Part shown: one piece after another, positions 3,417-49,911 of the stretch
Layout: each line of letters opens with the position of its first letter
How positions within the stretch are numbered: the stretch's first letter is position 1
Source: Syntrophotalea acetylenica
GTDB taxonomy: Bacteria > Desulfobacterota > Desulfuromonadia > Desulfuromonadales > Syntrophotaleaceae
Direction of reading: 5' to 3'
Length of the DNA: 64,000 nucleotides
Assembly: GCF_001888165.1 (NCBI RefSeq)
Contig: NZ_CP015455.1
Location: forward strand, 620,001 to 684,000
Notes under the pieces: generated by a model
What the model was told of the DNA's origin: nothing
Database searches by the model: none
What the model saw: only the letters and a program-made list of their open reading frames with translations
Translations under genes and position numbers: made by a program

Positions 3417-5606
3417 CTATCCGGGCTTTGTCGGTTCCCTGCCATTGGTCAGGCGTTTCGATTGATTCTGGGCCTTGCGTGCGATGGCCTGGGTTTGCAG
3501 TTCGGTCCAGGCAGCCAGGTTGTTTTTCTGCATGACCTTGAAGTTGGAAAGCAACTCCTTGAGCCGCTGTGCCTGTTGGGCGAGAGTTTCGGTGGGCACG
3601 GTGCTTTCCAGATCAGAGGCTGACCCTTTTTGCAAATCTTCTGATTCGGTTACCGGTTCCGGTTCATGGTTGACGCCGAGGGATTGTTCCCTGCTGGCCA
3701 CGGCAATTTCGGAAGCCAGATCGGTGATTTTTCCGATGCCGGCAACGATTTTGCGCAGGGTCTGGGCAGTGTGATCGGCCAGTTCGGAATCGGATCCGCT
3801 GCCATCCGCAGTGTTTTCGAGAAGGTCGGCGGTTTCCTTGGCCGCCCGCCCACTGCGTGCGGCGAGATTGCGCACTTCCTCGGCGACGACAGCAAAACCT
3901 TTGGTCCGCTGACCGCCGCGTGTCGCTCCCATGGCTGCATTGAGCGTCAGCAGGTTGGTCTGAAAGGTGATCTCGTCGATGAGCTTGATGATTTTGGATA
4001 TGTCTTCAGCCGAGGCGTTCATTTCCGCAACGGTATGCGCCATTTCCTCTTGCAGGGTTTCGCTGTCCGTCGTGTGAGGCGATTCGGCGGTCGGTGCTTC
4101 CTGGCTTGCCGATACGTGGGTCGCGCAGTTGGCGACCTGATCCGCTATGTCCTGAATTTCCTGCACCAGTTCATTCAGTGCAACGTTGGCCCGGGCCAGC
4201 GGTTTGGCGATCAGGCCTTTGGCTTTAAAGGTGAAGTCGCCCTGGGCGAGTCTGTCAAAGGCGGTATGGATTTCTTCTTGCAAATTGTCGGCAAAGTGAT
4301 CGACCGCGCCGGCGATCTCACCGATTTCATCCCTCCGCGTCATGTTCAGCCTCTGGTCAAGTTTGCCTTCCTCCAGGTTCAGAATCATGTCAAGGGTCTG
4401 CTTGAGCGGCCTGCTGATGTTGCGCGCCATCAGCAGGCCAATGACAACCGCCAGCACCAGCACCATGGCAGCGACAGCAGTAGCCGAACGGATGATGGAA
4501 AACAGCCCGGCCTTGACCGAGTCCTGTGCGGCCTGCAGGTCGTCTTCGTTGAACACGGCGAGGATGATCCAGTCCGACGGCTCGAAATAGGCGACTGCAG
4601 CGGTGCGCAAGCGGGGGTTTTTCTCGCCCTTTCCGCGGAAGGCAAACTGTTCGAAAGCCACCGGGATATCCGATTCGTTGTCGGTATGCAGGGCCAGGGC
4701 CTTGTCGATCAGGCTGCGGATGAAGAACCGGCCATCCCGGTGGTCCTGCAGATCCAGCAGGCTGGTACCTTCCAGCTTGCCCTGGCGACTTATCTGCACC
4801 ACCCCACGATGTTCGTTCTTGCCTCCCAGGATAAAGACTTCCCCGGTCTGTCCGACCTGCATGGCTTTGATGCCCTGCCGCAAGCTGGCGACATTCTCCT
4901 GCTTGGCGCCATGGTAAAGTACTCCGACCACCTCTTTGTGGCCTTTATCCCAGATTGGCTGATAGGCCGTGATATACCACGCGTTGACCACAAAGGCCCG
5001 TCCCAGGAAGGTTTCGCCGCGCAGCACCGCCTTGACAACTTCGTTGGGGGTGCCATCGGGATTGAGGGCCGGGATATAGGTGCCGATGGCCCGCATGCCG
5101 TTGGTTTGAATAACGTTGGTGGCGATGCGCAGCATGTCGCCATCTTCGTTGATGCGCTGGAAGACACTGGTGGTGCCGCCAACGAGTTGATGTACTTCAT
5201 CGATCAGGGGCGTCGGGTGGGCGGCATCGCGATTCTGCCCGAACCACCGGTTGCCGATGAGCATTTTAGGCAGAACAAGGGATCTGGTTTCCTTGGTGAA
5301 CTGGTTTACCGCGACCCATCGGATCGTCGTGGGGGCGAAGGAAATGCCTCCTTCCCGATGCAGCAGGGTGTCGGCGACCTTGAGGTTGTTGAGCACCGTT
5401 TCGGTCACCGATTCGCGCATGACCTCGCACATCAGGTGAATGCTGCGAGCTACCTTGGCGGTTTCCTGGCGTGCCTGGTTTTCGATGATGCCGGTTACTC
5501 GCTGGCCGATGCGCTTTTCCTGAAAATGGGTAATGCCGACAATTGCTGCGGCGGTCAACACCACGAGGGCAACCCCCATGGCGATGATTTTTCCCTGGAT
5601 TTTCAT
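3417..5606 (-). CDS. Methyl-accepting chemotaxis protein with Cache sensor and degenerate signalling domain
   Basis: A 729-residue chemoreceptor. An N-terminal membrane segment (about 8-26) is followed by a periplasmic Cache-type sensor, a second membrane segment (about 415-440), a HAMP domain ([13 protein letters not shown]) and a cytoplasmic MCP domain. The hairpin tip is recognisable ([16 protein letters not shown], then [17 protein letters not shown]). However, the usual EAARAGE stretch reads MGATRGGQ, the N-terminal arm before the tip is short, and the C-terminal arm has many Glu/Pro/Ser residues ([11 protein letters not shown]) that break the heptad pattern. The end ([13 protein letters not shown]) is normal. 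The start at 5606 has GAGGAT upstream. It may still bind ligand, but coupling to CheA/CheW could be impaired. Confidence 0.88.
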
Positions 5607-45178: not shown

Positions 45179-45451
45179 TTATCGGCAGGAAATCCCCGAT
45201 AACCGGTTAAGCTGGGTTTCTGCGTCCGGATGCAGCAAAAACAGCTCTTTGAGTTTGGCGCAGGGGAAAACGGAGCAGGTCGCGCAGATGGCTTGCCGGT
45301 TTGTGCGGGCGCAGAGGCGGATAGCGCAATTCCGGCCGAGAATATTGCAACCGGGCCCTTCCGAGCGGCAACCGCTGCAAAACGAGGCGTCCTCGACGAG
45401 CGGCGCATAGGCCTCGCATTGCTCACAGTCTTTGCCACAATAAGCCAGCAT
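45179..45451 (-). CDS. DUF3795 cysteine-rich protein
   Basis: A 90-residue protein with nine or so cysteines: YCGKDCEQCEAY, CSGCRSEGPGC, NCAIRLCA and CATCSVFPCAKL. This layout matches DUF3795, which probably binds metal or an iron-sulfur cluster. The start at 45451 has AGGAGG upstream and gives the expected N-terminus of the family (MLAYCGKDCEQC); the longer upstream frame has no support. Confidence 0.85.
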   Translation of the reverse strand: MLAYCGKDCEQCEAYAPLVEDASFCSGCRSEGPGCNILGRNCAIRLCARTNRQAICATCSVFPCAKLKELFLLHPDAETQLNRLSGISCR

Positions 45452-45841
45452 TGCCAAAGCCTCCTGGATAAGGAAAAAGAATTCTGGAACCAATCTGCTT
45501 AAAGAAGTGTGAATATTTGACGAAAGTTTAATTAGGTCTTTAGAAAAAATCAATATTTTGTTTGCGGCAACTCACGGAAAGTCCATTGCGTCCGTTGCGG
45601 GTCGCCTGGCAGGTCACACAAAGAGTTCTCTGACGTCGACCTTGCTGCGGAAATAACCTGGTTTTCGTTCGTTGTCTCCGGATGGATACAGCCTGAATCC
45701 ACATGCCGCAGTTTTTGCAGAAATGCGGCATTTATTTTGCTGGTATGAACGAAGCGGGTGCATCGGGTCCGGGGTGGCGAATTTTTGCCGGATTGCCGGG
45801 CATGGCTCTTCCACCTTCCAGCATGGAGACATTCAGGAATC
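45452..45841. other. Divergent intergenic region with a repeat-end remnant
   Basis: About 390 bp between the divergent DUF3795 and cheX-type genes with no credible gene. CTCCGGATGGATAC at 45676-45689 matches one half of the dispersed-repeat end palindrome and may be a worn remnant (copy G). Nothing else was recognised. Confidence 0.45.
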
Positions 45842-46318
45842 ATGGCTTATCATCAGATAATAGAGCAGACGGTCCAGGAGATTTTCGCAAGCATGGTGTT
45901 TCTCGATATCGTGCCCCGGCCCGATGTCGAACCCGAACCCATGGAAGGGCCCATGCTGACGTCCATGATAGGTCTGGCAGGCGATCTTCAGGGCAGTGTT
46001 CTGATTCATCTGCCCGCGCCGGTGGCGGTTGCCATCACCGGCGCTTTTCTGGGTCTGGAAATCGACGGTGTGGACGATGATGTCAAGGATGCCATCGGCG
46101 AGTTGGCAAACATGGTGGCCGGCGGTATCAAATATCTGCTTCCGCAAAAAGGGCAGGATGTGGGACTGGCGATCCCGTCGGTGGTCTGCGGACAGGGCTA
46201 TAGCTGCGAGGCGACCGGCCGTTTCGACCGAACCACGGTGGTGTTCGAGTTGGAAGCGGGACGGTTCATGGTGGAGATGCAGATCAAGGATTCCGCCGGG
46301 GTTCTGAAACGGGTGTAA
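45842..46318 (+). CDS. CheX/CheC-like chemotaxis phosphatase
   Basis: A 158-residue protein. GLAGDLQGSVLIHLPAPVAV, the helix DAIGELANMVAGGIKYLLP, which carries the E..N pattern used by CheX to attack phospho-CheY, and GQGYSCEATGRFDRTTVVFELE fit the CheX fold. It probably removes phosphate from CheY-type receivers. AGGAA precedes the ATG. It may serve the receivers of the chemotaxis system; no cheA or cheY is in the window. Confidence 0.85.
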   Translation: MAYHQIIEQTVQEIFASMVFLDIVPRPDVEPEPMEGPMLTSMIGLAGDLQGSVLIHLPAPVAVAITGAFLGLEIDGVDDDVKDAIGELANMVAGGIKYLLPQKGQDVGLAIPSVVCGQGYSCEATGRFDRTTVVFELEAGRFMVEMQIKDSAGVLKRV

Positions 46319-46506
46319 TGCCCGGCAGGCGCTCGCCATGCCGATGTTTGCAAAAAGACTGAAATTGCTTGGCCGGGCACAAGTGGCAACGCGGCCGCTG
46401 GCGCGTTCTGGTGACGCCATCGGTACCGGCATCGGGGTGGTCGTATGGCCGCCTTTTTTACGGCACGGAGCGGGACGCGGGACAAGGGGCGTCAAAGGCC
46501 TGCCTG

Positions 46507-46683
46507 TCAGAGGCGTTGCCGTCCGGAGCTGATCCGTTTGAAAATTTCGCAGTCCTGGTAATTCCCGGCGCAAAAAAGGACGGTTTTCTGGATGTCGCTG
46601 CTGGTCATCTTCATGAAATAGCAGTCTTCGTACTCTTCCTTGACCAGTGGGCACAGTCGATTGGCGCAATTGATTGATGACAC
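46507..46683 (-). CDS. Small cysteine-rich protein (58 residues)
   Basis: A short minus-strand gene that starts at GTG 46683 with AAGGA five bases upstream and an in-frame stop just before it. The protein has INCANRLCPLVKEEYEDCYFM, then TVLFCAGNYQDCEIFKR: five cysteines with spacing C-x4-C-x9-C and C-x5-C. I have seen similar short C..C..C...FC.G....C units in small proteins and as domain tails near signalling genes in Geobacter-like bacteria, but I cannot name a family. A metal or redox role is possible. Confidence 0.6.
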   Translation of the reverse strand: MSSINCANRLCPLVKEEYEDCYFMKMTSSDIQKTVLFCAGNYQDCEIFKRISSGRQRL

Positions 46684-47146
46684 GTCAATCCTTCATGGCG
46701 ATGCATGCCAGGAGGCATGGGACCATCCTCGGCGGTTAGCGGATATTCAACGCGGGTAAGGGTGGTGGATTCGCAAAAACGCCTCAACGCTGCGGCGGGA
46801 CTTTTTGCGACGCACATCAATGTGCTGGCAATGATGTTCTGTTAGCAACCCTCATGCCAGTGTCTTTCCCACCACCGGACGACGGACGCCGCCGGATAAC
46901 CGGCGGAGCCGAAAAACGCATTGGAGTTGTCCGTAAACAGCTTGTTTCAGCAGATTGAATAGAGCGTTCGCGTGAATTTTCCGGCTATGCGAAAGGGCAG
47001 GGAAATTCCTTGTTTCGCGTTTTTTGGTGGCAGCGCAATGTGGTCCTGGCCAATAAGCGCACCGATCAGGGCCTGGCGGTGTGGCAGTTGGTCCGCAGGC
47101 AGGTCCGCAGATTTGGGGTGTGCCACATGTTGCCGCAATGAAACGG
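46684..47146. other. Intergenic region with no recognised gene
   Basis: About 460 bp. One plus-strand frame (about 47027-47140) reads WQRNVVLANKRTDQ then WQLVRRQVRRFG but has no start signal and no homologue I recognise. A CCGCCGG-ATAA-CCGGCGG hairpin lies near 46900. I see nothing else. Confidence 0.4.
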
Positions 47147-47527
47147 TTATTCAGCGAGCCAGCGAAGGGCCTGGTCCCGGTCAAAAAAACAGTGGAGGCG
47201 TTCGGGTTGGGCCATCTGATCCTGCATCAGGCCCAGAACGGAATCGCTGCCGCGCTGCTGGACCGAAAACAGCAGAGCGGTTCTTTTCGATTGGCCGCAG
47301 ACGAGTTGATAGATCAGTCCGTCAAGGGGATTGCCTTGGTCGTGCAGTGACAGTTTGACGGTCCGCCGTTTATCAATGAGCACCTTGTCTATTTTCTGGG
47401 TGCGGGCCAGGGCCAGGGTTTCCGACAAGGCGCTGATCGTGTTCTGTTCGGAGAATGGACCGTAGATCTCCAGTTGGATGATCTCGGGGTTCTGGAGGGT
47501 GGAAATCTGCCATCCTGTATGGGTCAT
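47147..47527 (-). CDS. STAS-like small protein
   Basis: A 126-residue soluble protein. Alternating strands and helices (IIQLEIYGPFSEQNTISALSE, then IDKVLIDKRRTVKLSL, then RTALLFSVQQRGSDS) and the total length resemble the STAS/SpoIIAA-like fold, often found in bacterial signalling regions. No conserved phosphorylatable serine is clear. AGTTGCACC lies before the ATG, a weak ribosome site. It may interact with the nearby sensory proteins. Confidence 0.55.
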   Translation of the reverse strand: MTHTGWQISTLQNPEIIQLEIYGPFSEQNTISALSETLALARTQKIDKVLIDKRRTVKLSLHDQGNPLDGLIYQLVCGQSKRTALLFSVQQRGSDSVLGLMQDQMAQPERLHCFFDRDQALRWLAE

Positions 47528-47874: not shown

Positions 47875-49911
47875 TCATCCCGGCAATGTCGTATCGAGAA
47901 CCACCCGGTTGCGGCCACCTTTTTTTGCTGCGAAGAGTGCCCGGTTGGCGCGGGCGATGAGCTGCTCGTAAGTGTTGTCCCGCGTTGGTTGCATGCTGGC
48001 GACGCCGACGCTGACCGTGACCACGCCGAAAGCCCCTTCTCCCTGATGGGGGATGTGCAGGGCTTCGATTTGACTTCGGATTTTTTCAGCCAGGGAATTA
48101 GCTGCCTCGCTGTCGCTGTCGGGAACGATTACGGCGAATTGCTCGCCACCGAATCGGGCGATGCGCTCTTCGTCGCCCTGAATGCACGCCGCCATGGTCT
48201 GCGCGATCTTTTTGAGGCACTGGTCGCCGGCCTGGTAGCCGTAGGTATCGTTGAACGGTTTGAACCGGTCCATATCGACCAGCACCAGTGCCAAAGGGGT
48301 CTCTTTTTGCCGGGCTCGCTGCCAGAAGGACGGCAGGGCGGCATCGAAACTGCGCCGGTTGGCGACATCCGTCAGCGGATCCAGCATGGCCAGCCGCCGC
48401 AGAAACTGCTGGGCGCGTCGCCGCTGCTGAACTTCCAGTTCAAGCTTGATGTTGGTCTGCGCCAGTTTCTCGGTCCTCTCCGCGACCCTCTGTTCCAGTT
48501 CGCCACGGATGATGCGCAGCTGCTCCAGAGTATCGGCCAGCTTTCGCGTCCTGACGTTGAACCAGTAGGCGAAGGTTCCGAATTCGTTGTGGAAGGTTTC
48601 GTCGAGGCACAACATTTCTTCAGCATTGATGTCGATGGCGCTTCTGAGCTGGTGGGTCAGGCGGGCCAGGGGGCGCATCAGCATGGTGTTCAGAGTCAGA
48701 AAGGCCCCGAGGACTGCCGCCGATACGCTCATGATCAGAGCGATCAGCAACGCACGATAGATGGCCTTGGCCGTCGACATGGCATGGCTTACCGGCGTGA
48801 CGGTGACGATTTTCCAGTAGGTTCCGGGCACATGAAAAATCGCCACGCTGCATGGCTCTTCCAGGAGCAGGTCGCCGTCGGTGGTGAAATGCCGGAGCAG
48901 CAGACCGCCGTCCTGGCTGCCGAGTCGGGGTTCCTGCAGCACGGCCGTGATAAGCGCGGCTTCATCCGGCGATATGTCCGCACCCTGGCGGGCGATTGTC
49001 GCGGCCATGTCGGGGTCGAAACTGTCGGACTGGCGGGATTTTTCCAGCAGTTCCTTGCTGCTGGCGTAAACAGCCGACGCCAGGGGCGCGAATTGCGGTT
49101 TCTGGGCGGCGAGGTCGCGGGCCTGGATATATTCGATCTGTTTGCGCCCCAGCCTGTCCGTGCGGCTGAGGCGGGTAAGGGTTACATCGGGAAACGACAG
49201 AAACTTACCGTTGCGGTCGACGGCGAAGGCATAGCCGCTGATTTTTTTGGCCTGCGCATCAAAAAAGGCCTCCAGTCCTTCCAGTTTGAGGTCGACGGTT
49301 ACCACGCCGGTAAACCGGCCGTCGCGGTAGATCGGCGCGGTGCAGGTCACCATGGGGACATAGGTGTGGGGATCGACATAGGATCGGGACCAGAAAACCT
49401 TGCCGGGTTTGAGATACCTGCCCGGTACATACCATTCCTCCCGATGATAGCCGGGGCTGTCGGGGTCGTCATAGTCCTTGACAAAATCAAGGAGGCCTTC
49501 GGCGTTGCGCCCCCAGAAAAAACTGCGTCGCTCATGGTCCGGCTCAAAGCTGAAGGGTTCGTACCAGACCCCGCCGCCGATGATATAGGATGACGGACCC
49601 AGCTTGTCAATCAGGCGCGGGATTATCCGCATGTGGTCATCTGCCCGCAAGGGCAGTACGGCGCTGGTCGTGGAAAGGGCGCGGGCCAGCGTTTCGGCAA
49701 CGGCCAGTCGCTCGCCCAGTTGGGCGACCATGGTACTGCCTACCTGGTTGACCATGCGGAAGGACTGCTCCTCCAGGCGTGGCCGGGCGACGGTATCCAT
49801 GATAATGGTCAGGCTGGCTACCAGCACGGCAAGCAGCAGCAGAAACAGCAAAGGGGTGCGAAACAGAAGACTGTTATGCCAACGCACCGAAAACGCGCTC
49901 TTGGGGTCCAT
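47875..49911 (-). CDS. Membrane diguanylate cyclase-like protein with Cache sensor (GGEQF)
   Basis: A 678-residue inner-membrane protein. An N-terminal membrane helix (LLFLLLLAVLVASLTII) precedes a large periplasmic Cache-type domain (YVPGRYLKPGKVFWSRSYVDP, VTVDLKLEGLEAFF), a second membrane helix (LLIALIMSVSAAVLGAFLTL), a HAMP-like segment, a coiled coil (about 480-520) and a GGDEF domain. The catalytic core has DMDRFKPFNDTYGYQAGD and RFGGEQF; the E-to-Q change at the fourth position is unusual but tolerated in some enzymes. No RxxD inhibitory site is present. It probably makes c-di-GMP in response to an extracellular ligand. Confidence 0.88.
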   Translation of the reverse strand: MDPKSAFSVRWHNSLLFRTPLLFLLLLAVLVASLTIIMDTVARPRLEEQSFRMVNQVGSTMVAQLGERLAVAETLARALSTTSAVLPLRADDHMRIIPRLIDKLGPSSYIIGGGVWYEPFSFEPDHERRSFFWGRNAEGLLDFVKDYDDPDSPGYHREEWYVPGRYLKPGKVFWSRSYVDPHTYVPMVTCTAPIYRDGRFTGVVTVDLKLEGLEAFFDAQAKKISGYAFAVDRNGKFLSFPDVTLTRLSRTDRLGRKQIEYIQARDLAAQKPQFAPLASAVYASSKELLEKSRQSDSFDPDMAATIARQGADISPDEAALITAVLQEPRLGSQDGGLLLRHFTTDGDLLLEEPCSVAIFHVPGTYWKIVTVTPVSHAMSTAKAIYRALLIALIMSVSAAVLGAFLTLNTMLMRPLARLTHQLRSAIDINAEEMLCLDETFHNEFGTFAYWFNVRTRKLADTLEQLRIIRGELEQRVAERTEKLAQTNIKLELEVQQRRRAQQFLRRLAMLDPLTDVANRRSFDAALPSFWQRARQKETPLALVLVDMDRFKPFNDTYGYQAGDQCLKKIAQTMAACIQGDEERIARFGGEQFAVIVPDSDSEAANSLAEKIRSQIEALHIPHQGEGAFGVVTVSVGVASMQPTRDNTYEQLIARANRALFAAKKGGRNRVVLDTTLPG

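Follow-up and report, generated by a model that had tools for sequence, protein, structure and literature searches.

A four-cysteine small protein behind a sigma-54-like promoter in Syntrophotalea acetylenica and its possible role in signalling

The window, by which we mean the whole 64,000-nucleotide stretch of DNA analysed here, carries on its minus strand a short open reading frame for a 58-residue cysteine-bearing protein. It is preceded by elements resembling a ribosome-binding site, a sigma-54 promoter and an enhancer, and genes of likely signalling function lie nearby. The features of the locus are as follows.

45842-46318, plus strand: CheX-like phosphatase gene (PF13690, E 5.3e-21), with synteny in five congeneric loci (L060-L063, L071)
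46507-46683, minus strand: 58-residue Cys4 protein, supported by homologues, pN/pS and invariant cysteines (C11, C21, C38, C45)
46689-46693, minus strand: Shine-Dalgarno sequence AAGGA, 5 nt before the GTG, read from the sequence
46844-46859, minus strand: sigma-54-like (-24/-12) promoter TGGCATGAGGGTTGCT, GG-N10-GC, the best match in the window
47077-47128, minus strand: enhancer-like site (UAS) ATGTGGCACACCCCAAATCTGCGGACC...CTGCCACAC, located with a matrix from two other genera
47147-47527, minus strand: gene for a 126-residue protein, the upstream same-strand neighbour, genus-restricted and with no Pfam match
47875-49911, minus strand: dCache-GGDEF protein, likely a diguanylate cyclase (PF00990, E 8e-47; PF02743, E 5.7e-15)

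An earlier note on this DNA had proposed the small protein as a minus-strand frame with a GTG start, five cysteines and a good ribosome site. Re-reading the sequence confirmed each of these: the frame at 46507-46683 starts with GTG, its cysteines are residues 6, 11, 21, 38 and 45, and AAGGA at 46693-46689 is followed by the GTG 5 nt on. The cysteine spacing given there was correct for C6-x4-C11-x9-C21, but the last pair is C38-x6-C45 and not x5. Comparison of six congeneric orthologues over 49 codons (15 species pairs) gave a mean pN of 0.165 and a mean pS of 0.577, with pN/pS at 0.29 across the six species. The nearest rival among the five other frames, one antisense frame with pN 0.19 and pS 0.42, contains stops in 6/6 sequences. 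The start codon is also aligned, being GTG in the window and TTG in 4/4 congeners aligned. The frame is a genuine gene, under purifying selection in the six congeneric orthologues. Our home-made codon-score caller overlooked it in the window (score 5.8 against a cut-off of 8), and this weak score would suit a chance reading frame within a regulatory region. That explanation is refuted by the conservation of the frame, namely its pN/pS over six species, its aligned start and its class-wide homologues, and we give it practically no chance.

Of 58 relatives, 24 have homologues of the protein. Every one of the six genomes in the genus is among them, with 65-77% identity to the window protein in the five other congeners. 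A profile (A1), made from 26 of the 28 hits in relatives after one near-duplicate and one divergent MFS-fused hit had been dropped, matched at least 109/277 class genomes (approximately 39%) at E <= 1e-3. Outside the class, the family profile matched at least 5 of the 395 genomes sampled in the phylum at E <= 1e-4; both counts are lower bounds, since first-look candidates were scored partly in some genomes. The earlier note had named conservation of the cysteines in relatives as the test of its proposal, and four of the five passed. In an alignment of 53 of the 81 distinct hits, hand-picked for diversity (A3), C11, C21, C38 and C45 are invariant (53/53 rows), whereas C6 is not conserved. Every row has an aromatic residue, Tyr or Phe, at position 48. 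The window protein has the cysteine frame of subfamily A, C-x9-C-x16-C-x6-C; a few rows carry indels of one or two residues inside the x16 stretch. A fifth family cysteine, at position 23 (CYC), is present in 48/53 rows. It is Phe in the window genus and is therefore not counted as defining the subfamily.

Database searches returned little. No Pfam or NCBIfam model matched the window protein above its curated cut-off, and the 26 A1 members had no Pfam match and only stray NCBIfam matches (E >= 0.026). The family had no match among PDB sequences and was negative in PADLOC and in PHROGs, where six families were each matched by one member (best E 0.011). A tblastn search gave no match to plasmid-borne relatives, and scanning the window for Rfam families and tRNA genes showed nothing relevant to the gene. 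We found no literature on the family in open-licence papers, and the available passages of PMC2725144, PMC12316311, PMC7726332, PMC7894505, PMC8691401 and PMC11227281 contain no description of it. The 58-residue protein represents, in Pelobacter/Syntrophotalea, a previously undescribed family of Cys4 domains that occurs in the iron- and sulfur-cycling Desulfuromonadia.

Two AlphaFold models (pLDDT 76 and 81) consist of two to three short helices with no strands. Their comparison with solved structures, a weak test at 58 residues, produced no credible PDB match and one chance hit (E 8.7). Zinc ribbons are defined by two CXXC knuckles, and such knuckles are absent from both the window protein and the family consensus. 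The four invariant cysteines make metal binding plausible. A small, cysteine-bearing protein might also be used for metal storage or as a metallochaperone, in the manner of metallothionein and with no signalling role. This is highly improbable given only four to five cysteines in 58 residues, their long fixed spacings, the conserved aromatics, and the recurrent signalling neighbours and fusions described below.

The -24/-12 consensus of sigma-54 promoters is GG-N10-GC. This arrangement, a sequence criterion for sigma-54-dependent genes, is present in the element upstream of the Cys4 gene, TGGCATGAGGGTTGCT, which outscored every other site on either strand of the 64 kb window (40.8 of 41.5, with the next at 40.0). 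Scores of 39.5-41.1 were obtained upstream in 4/4 congeneric loci scored. Over the whole set of 81 members, which includes both subfamilies, a score of at least 38 was reached upstream of 23, compared with 1/81 on the reverse strand and 2/81 downstream. The same threshold was reached at 18/53 standalone loci and at 4/317 control genes, the controls being taken from the same loci at a distance of more than 4 kb. Its upstream sequence makes the Cys4 gene look like one that sits behind a sigma-54 genetic switch.

The association with signalling genes that the earlier note suspected in related bacteria is borne out: in many relatives the gene adjoins those of sensor kinases, NtrC-type activators, CheW or MCPs, and fusions join the domain to GAF/PAS proteins and a histidine kinase. 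We counted neighbours at 53 of the 81 hits, leaving out fused, short-contig and subfamily B loci. In these standalone loci, which were hand-picked from the best hits, are not phylogenetically independent and count L085 and L091 twice, the next upstream same-strand gene encodes an NtrC-type activator in 23/53 cases, against 1/317 control genes. An activator lies within the two nearest upstream genes in 26/53. By the same motif test, 27/53 have none in those two positions, among them all five loci of the window genus. CheW or an MCP is encoded by one of the two downstream genes in 16/53. All of these classes were assigned with regular-expression motifs rather than profiles, on gene calls from a home-made codon scorer, and both miss cases, for example the probable variant activators beside L119, L099 and L123. 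Pfam checking of locus L072 gave the order PAS kinase, NtrC-type activator (REC-PAS-Sigma54_activat-HTH_8), Cys4 gene, CheW and MCP; the gene lies between activator and CheW in this and four further sister-genus loci (L066, L067, L069 and L070). A second type of neighbourhood was seen in L082, L084, L085, L090, L097 and L098, where the Cys4 gene is directly downstream of a gene for a protein of 127-143 residues with weak hemerythrin-like features. We do not claim a hemerythrin-like identity for these neighbours, as the three scanned (L082, L085, L090) gave one Pfam match below the cut-off (L085, E 0.025) in addition to the motif reading.

Five loci from two sister genera carry, between the activator and the Cys4 gene, an element of about 50 bp with GTGTGGCGTGCCCCATAAGTGTGGAC and an inverted GCC(A/C)CAC end. 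A 28-base matrix built from those five loci alone ranked the site at 47128 first in the window (17.9 versus 14.5), directly behind the 126-residue protein gene. Its window score was reached in 0/500 pair-block shuffles, and at each of five loci from the window genus the matrix score was higher than in any of 500 shuffled sequences; these shuffles, like those used in promoter scoring, move bases in pairs and only approximate a true dinucleotide shuffle. A relaxed pattern, designed with the window site already known, had one match in the 3.2 Mb genome to which the window belongs. The site is diverged in the window genus, where it scores 14.5-25.5 bits, compared with 45 for the loci used in training. 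Dyads resembling TGTGCCATGGCACA, which are perhaps activator sites in other families, were seen approximately 250-360 bp upstream of the Cys4 gene in L081, L091, L073, L074 and L057.

The orthologue of the activator in the window genome (REC-PAS-AAA-Fis, 59% identical to the L072 activator) is encoded at C1:753950-755674, 87 kb from the Cys4 gene. CheW and MCP genes follow it, and the gap between activator and CheW, where the five sister-genus loci carry a Cys4 reading frame, holds none. The two genes are also far apart in genome G004, at 0.69 and 2.78 Mb. Across the 14 genomes of the taxonomic family, an activator orthologue (E <= 1e-150) is present in 12, the Cys4 gene in 13 and both together in 12. 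Genome G006 has neither; G005, which is 84% complete, has the Cys4 gene and no activator match. The 620 bases after the activator gene of the window genome contain no dyad or half-site. A full TTGTGGCATGCCACAA dyad is present in one of the four activator loci from congeners, L186; the other three, L187, L188 and L189, have half-sites only. The simplest account is that the Cys4 gene moved along with its control region and would still be regulated in trans; alternatively, the activator gene may have moved instead. The lack of such a site behind the activator gene in the window genome counts against this account. A gene that parted from its presumed regulator yet retained its control sites would illustrate regulatory conservation cleanly, and the conserved promoter and enhancer-like site offer a directly testable regulator-target pair.

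Gene order in the window genus is GGDEF, 126-residue protein and Cys4 protein, followed by the convergent CheX gene and a DUF2339 gene, with L061 cut off on the GGDEF side. The 126-residue protein, found in 6/58 relatives that all belong to one genus, is encoded between the GGDEF and Cys4 genes in the window, L060, L062, L063 and L071. The PF13690 gene at 45842-46318 does face the 58-residue frame, as the earlier note had reported. A tie to CheX did not hold up more widely: this neighbourhood is restricted to the genus and is not recurrent elsewhere, and we rejected a CheX partnership as the general context. A CheX-specific link is unsupported because the neighbourhood is genus-only, the genes are convergent and the Cys4 gene has a sigma-54-like promoter of its own. 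Beyond CheX, at 45179-45454 on the minus strand, lies a gene for a cysteine-rich DUF3795 protein (PF12675, E 1e-9), the second small cysteine protein within 1.5 kb.

Fusions place the Cys4 domain at the N-terminus of larger proteins. It precedes GAF/PAS proteins in L048, L050, L076 and L078; PAS_4 scored above cut-off in 4/4 of these and GAF in L076 only. In L105 it is N-terminal to a kinase, with HisKA_3 just above its cut-off (24.1 versus 24 bits) and HATPase_c below its own. In 3/3 loci (L076-L078), the Cys-GAF-PAS gene precedes a gene for a 627-residue sodium:solute symporter, with PF00474 in the one scanned (L077). A second subfamily, B (consensus CPFF-K-ED-CDVGCGYIS-HDV), has the same cysteine frame as subfamily A (hhalign probability 97.2%, E 4.7e-11) and differs from it by the CDVGC insertion. 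By Pfam, subfamily B is N-terminal to SatP/YaaH in L112, L113, L116 and L118 and to MFS transporters in L111, L114, L115 and L117; no Pfam domain covers the subfamily B part of the proteins in these loci. Standalone copies occur in L120, where two genes separate the copy from a downstream MFS gene, and in L175, where it follows the gene of an NtrC-type activator. Sigma-54-like sites scoring 37.8-41.1 were found at 8/9 subfamily B genes scored, the ninth, in L120, reaching 36.2. Subfamily B matched at least 200/271 class genomes at E <= 1e-5, again a lower bound from partial scoring, and none of the six genomes of the window genus.

By the usual logic of fusions, the Cys4 domain would contact or regulate its partner. 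It could tentatively be seen as a metal- or redox-linked coupling element used in common across Desulfuromonadia, with subfamily A plugged into sigma-54-controlled sensor kinases and chemoreceptor modules and subfamily B into acetate-type (SatP) and MFS transporters behind sigma-54-like promoters. We consider this rather doubtful; if true, a single intracellular signal would be connected through the plug-in domains with both taxis and nutrient uptake. An N-terminal position on kinase and transporters, from which the domain could gate their activity, together with four to five conserved cysteines in a taxonomic class known for its anaerobes, would also suit a redox or iron-sulfur sensor. Such a sensor would feed information into the partner kinase, chemoreceptor or transporter and would not be an induced output. 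Many members are themselves behind an inducible-type sigma-54 promoter and the window genus has lost the fifth cysteine, both of which count against a sensor and leave it an unlikely explanation.

We favour a reading in which the Cys4 protein is a sigma-54-induced, probably metal-binding signalling adaptor and the target of a two-component system, and we put its probability at about 45%. A PAS-containing sensor kinase would phosphorylate the NtrC-type activator (C1:753950-755674), and the phosphorylated activator would bind 47077-47128 and open the sigma-54-like promoter at 46844-46859. The Cys4 protein would then bind one metal through C11, C21, C38 and C45, zinc being more likely than Fe-S, and may serve the system as an adaptor or a feedback component by docking on its kinase, activator or chemoreceptor. 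Several observations weigh against this reading: the 27/53 standalone loci with no activator in the two nearest upstream positions, the divergence of the enhancer-like site in the window genus, the lack of a site behind the activator gene of the window genome, genome G005 with its Cys4 gene and no activator match, and the two models with no credible PDB match. The family consists of unannotated small proteins whose genes often occupy what is presumed to be the output position of NtrC/sigma-54 systems.

The output could instead be transcriptional. According to the parts of the cited papers available to us, HgtR (GSU3364) is an RpoN-linked repressor of Geobacter sulfurreducens (PMC2725144, PMC7726332, PMC7894505, PMC8691401) that is induced by hydrogen (PMC7894505), and its gene has an activator (EBP) gene upstream and a predicted RpoN promoter (PMC2725144). 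The Cys4 protein could likewise be a small transcription factor and the next step of a sigma-54 cascade, its Cys4 module and basic tail binding DNA or RNA. The wiring is similar to that of hgtR, and a basic C-terminus was seen by eye in many A1 rows. Fusions to GAF/PAS, kinase and transporters are, however, better suited to protein contact or sensing, and neither the window protein nor the 26 A1 members matched a DNA-binding family; we allow this role only a minor chance. Because of the similar wiring we considered whether the Cys4 gene is hgtR itself, and we infer that it is not, as the gene found behind a hydrogenase-domain activator in one genome of the class is of ribbon-helix-helix-like type. 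There (L176, 1828-4519), an activator with ferredoxin and Fe-only-hydrogenase domains and a sigma-54-like site are followed by a 58-residue ribbon-helix-helix-like gene at 4343-4519 (RHH_1 17.0 bits, cut-off 20.5; DUF6290 23.4, cut-off 27), which is not Cys4. This pair is a candidate hydrogen-sensing switch, and its small gene is possibly HgtR. In L086 the Cys4 gene is followed by a small gene of similar kind, with RHH_1 above its cut-off at 21.4 bits.

Three known systems bear comparison with the adaptor that we propose. The CheX phosphatase (PF13690) has a signalling context in common with the Cys4 protein and is adjacent to it in the window genus; we found no sequence relation between the two, and their genes are not co-oriented. 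The zinc-ribbon protein FlgZ/HP0958 (DUF164), as described in the part of PMC3372290 available to us, has four cysteines and a link to RpoN, as the Cys4 protein does. The Cys4 protein differs from it in having no CXXC, a C-x9-C-x16-C-x6-C spacing and no profile match. In the accessible passages of PMC2725144, some activator genes adjoin their targets and hypothetical genes occur in che clusters. Compared by the description of its wiring, the Cys4 gene is like hgtR in lying behind an activator gene and a predicted RpoN promoter.
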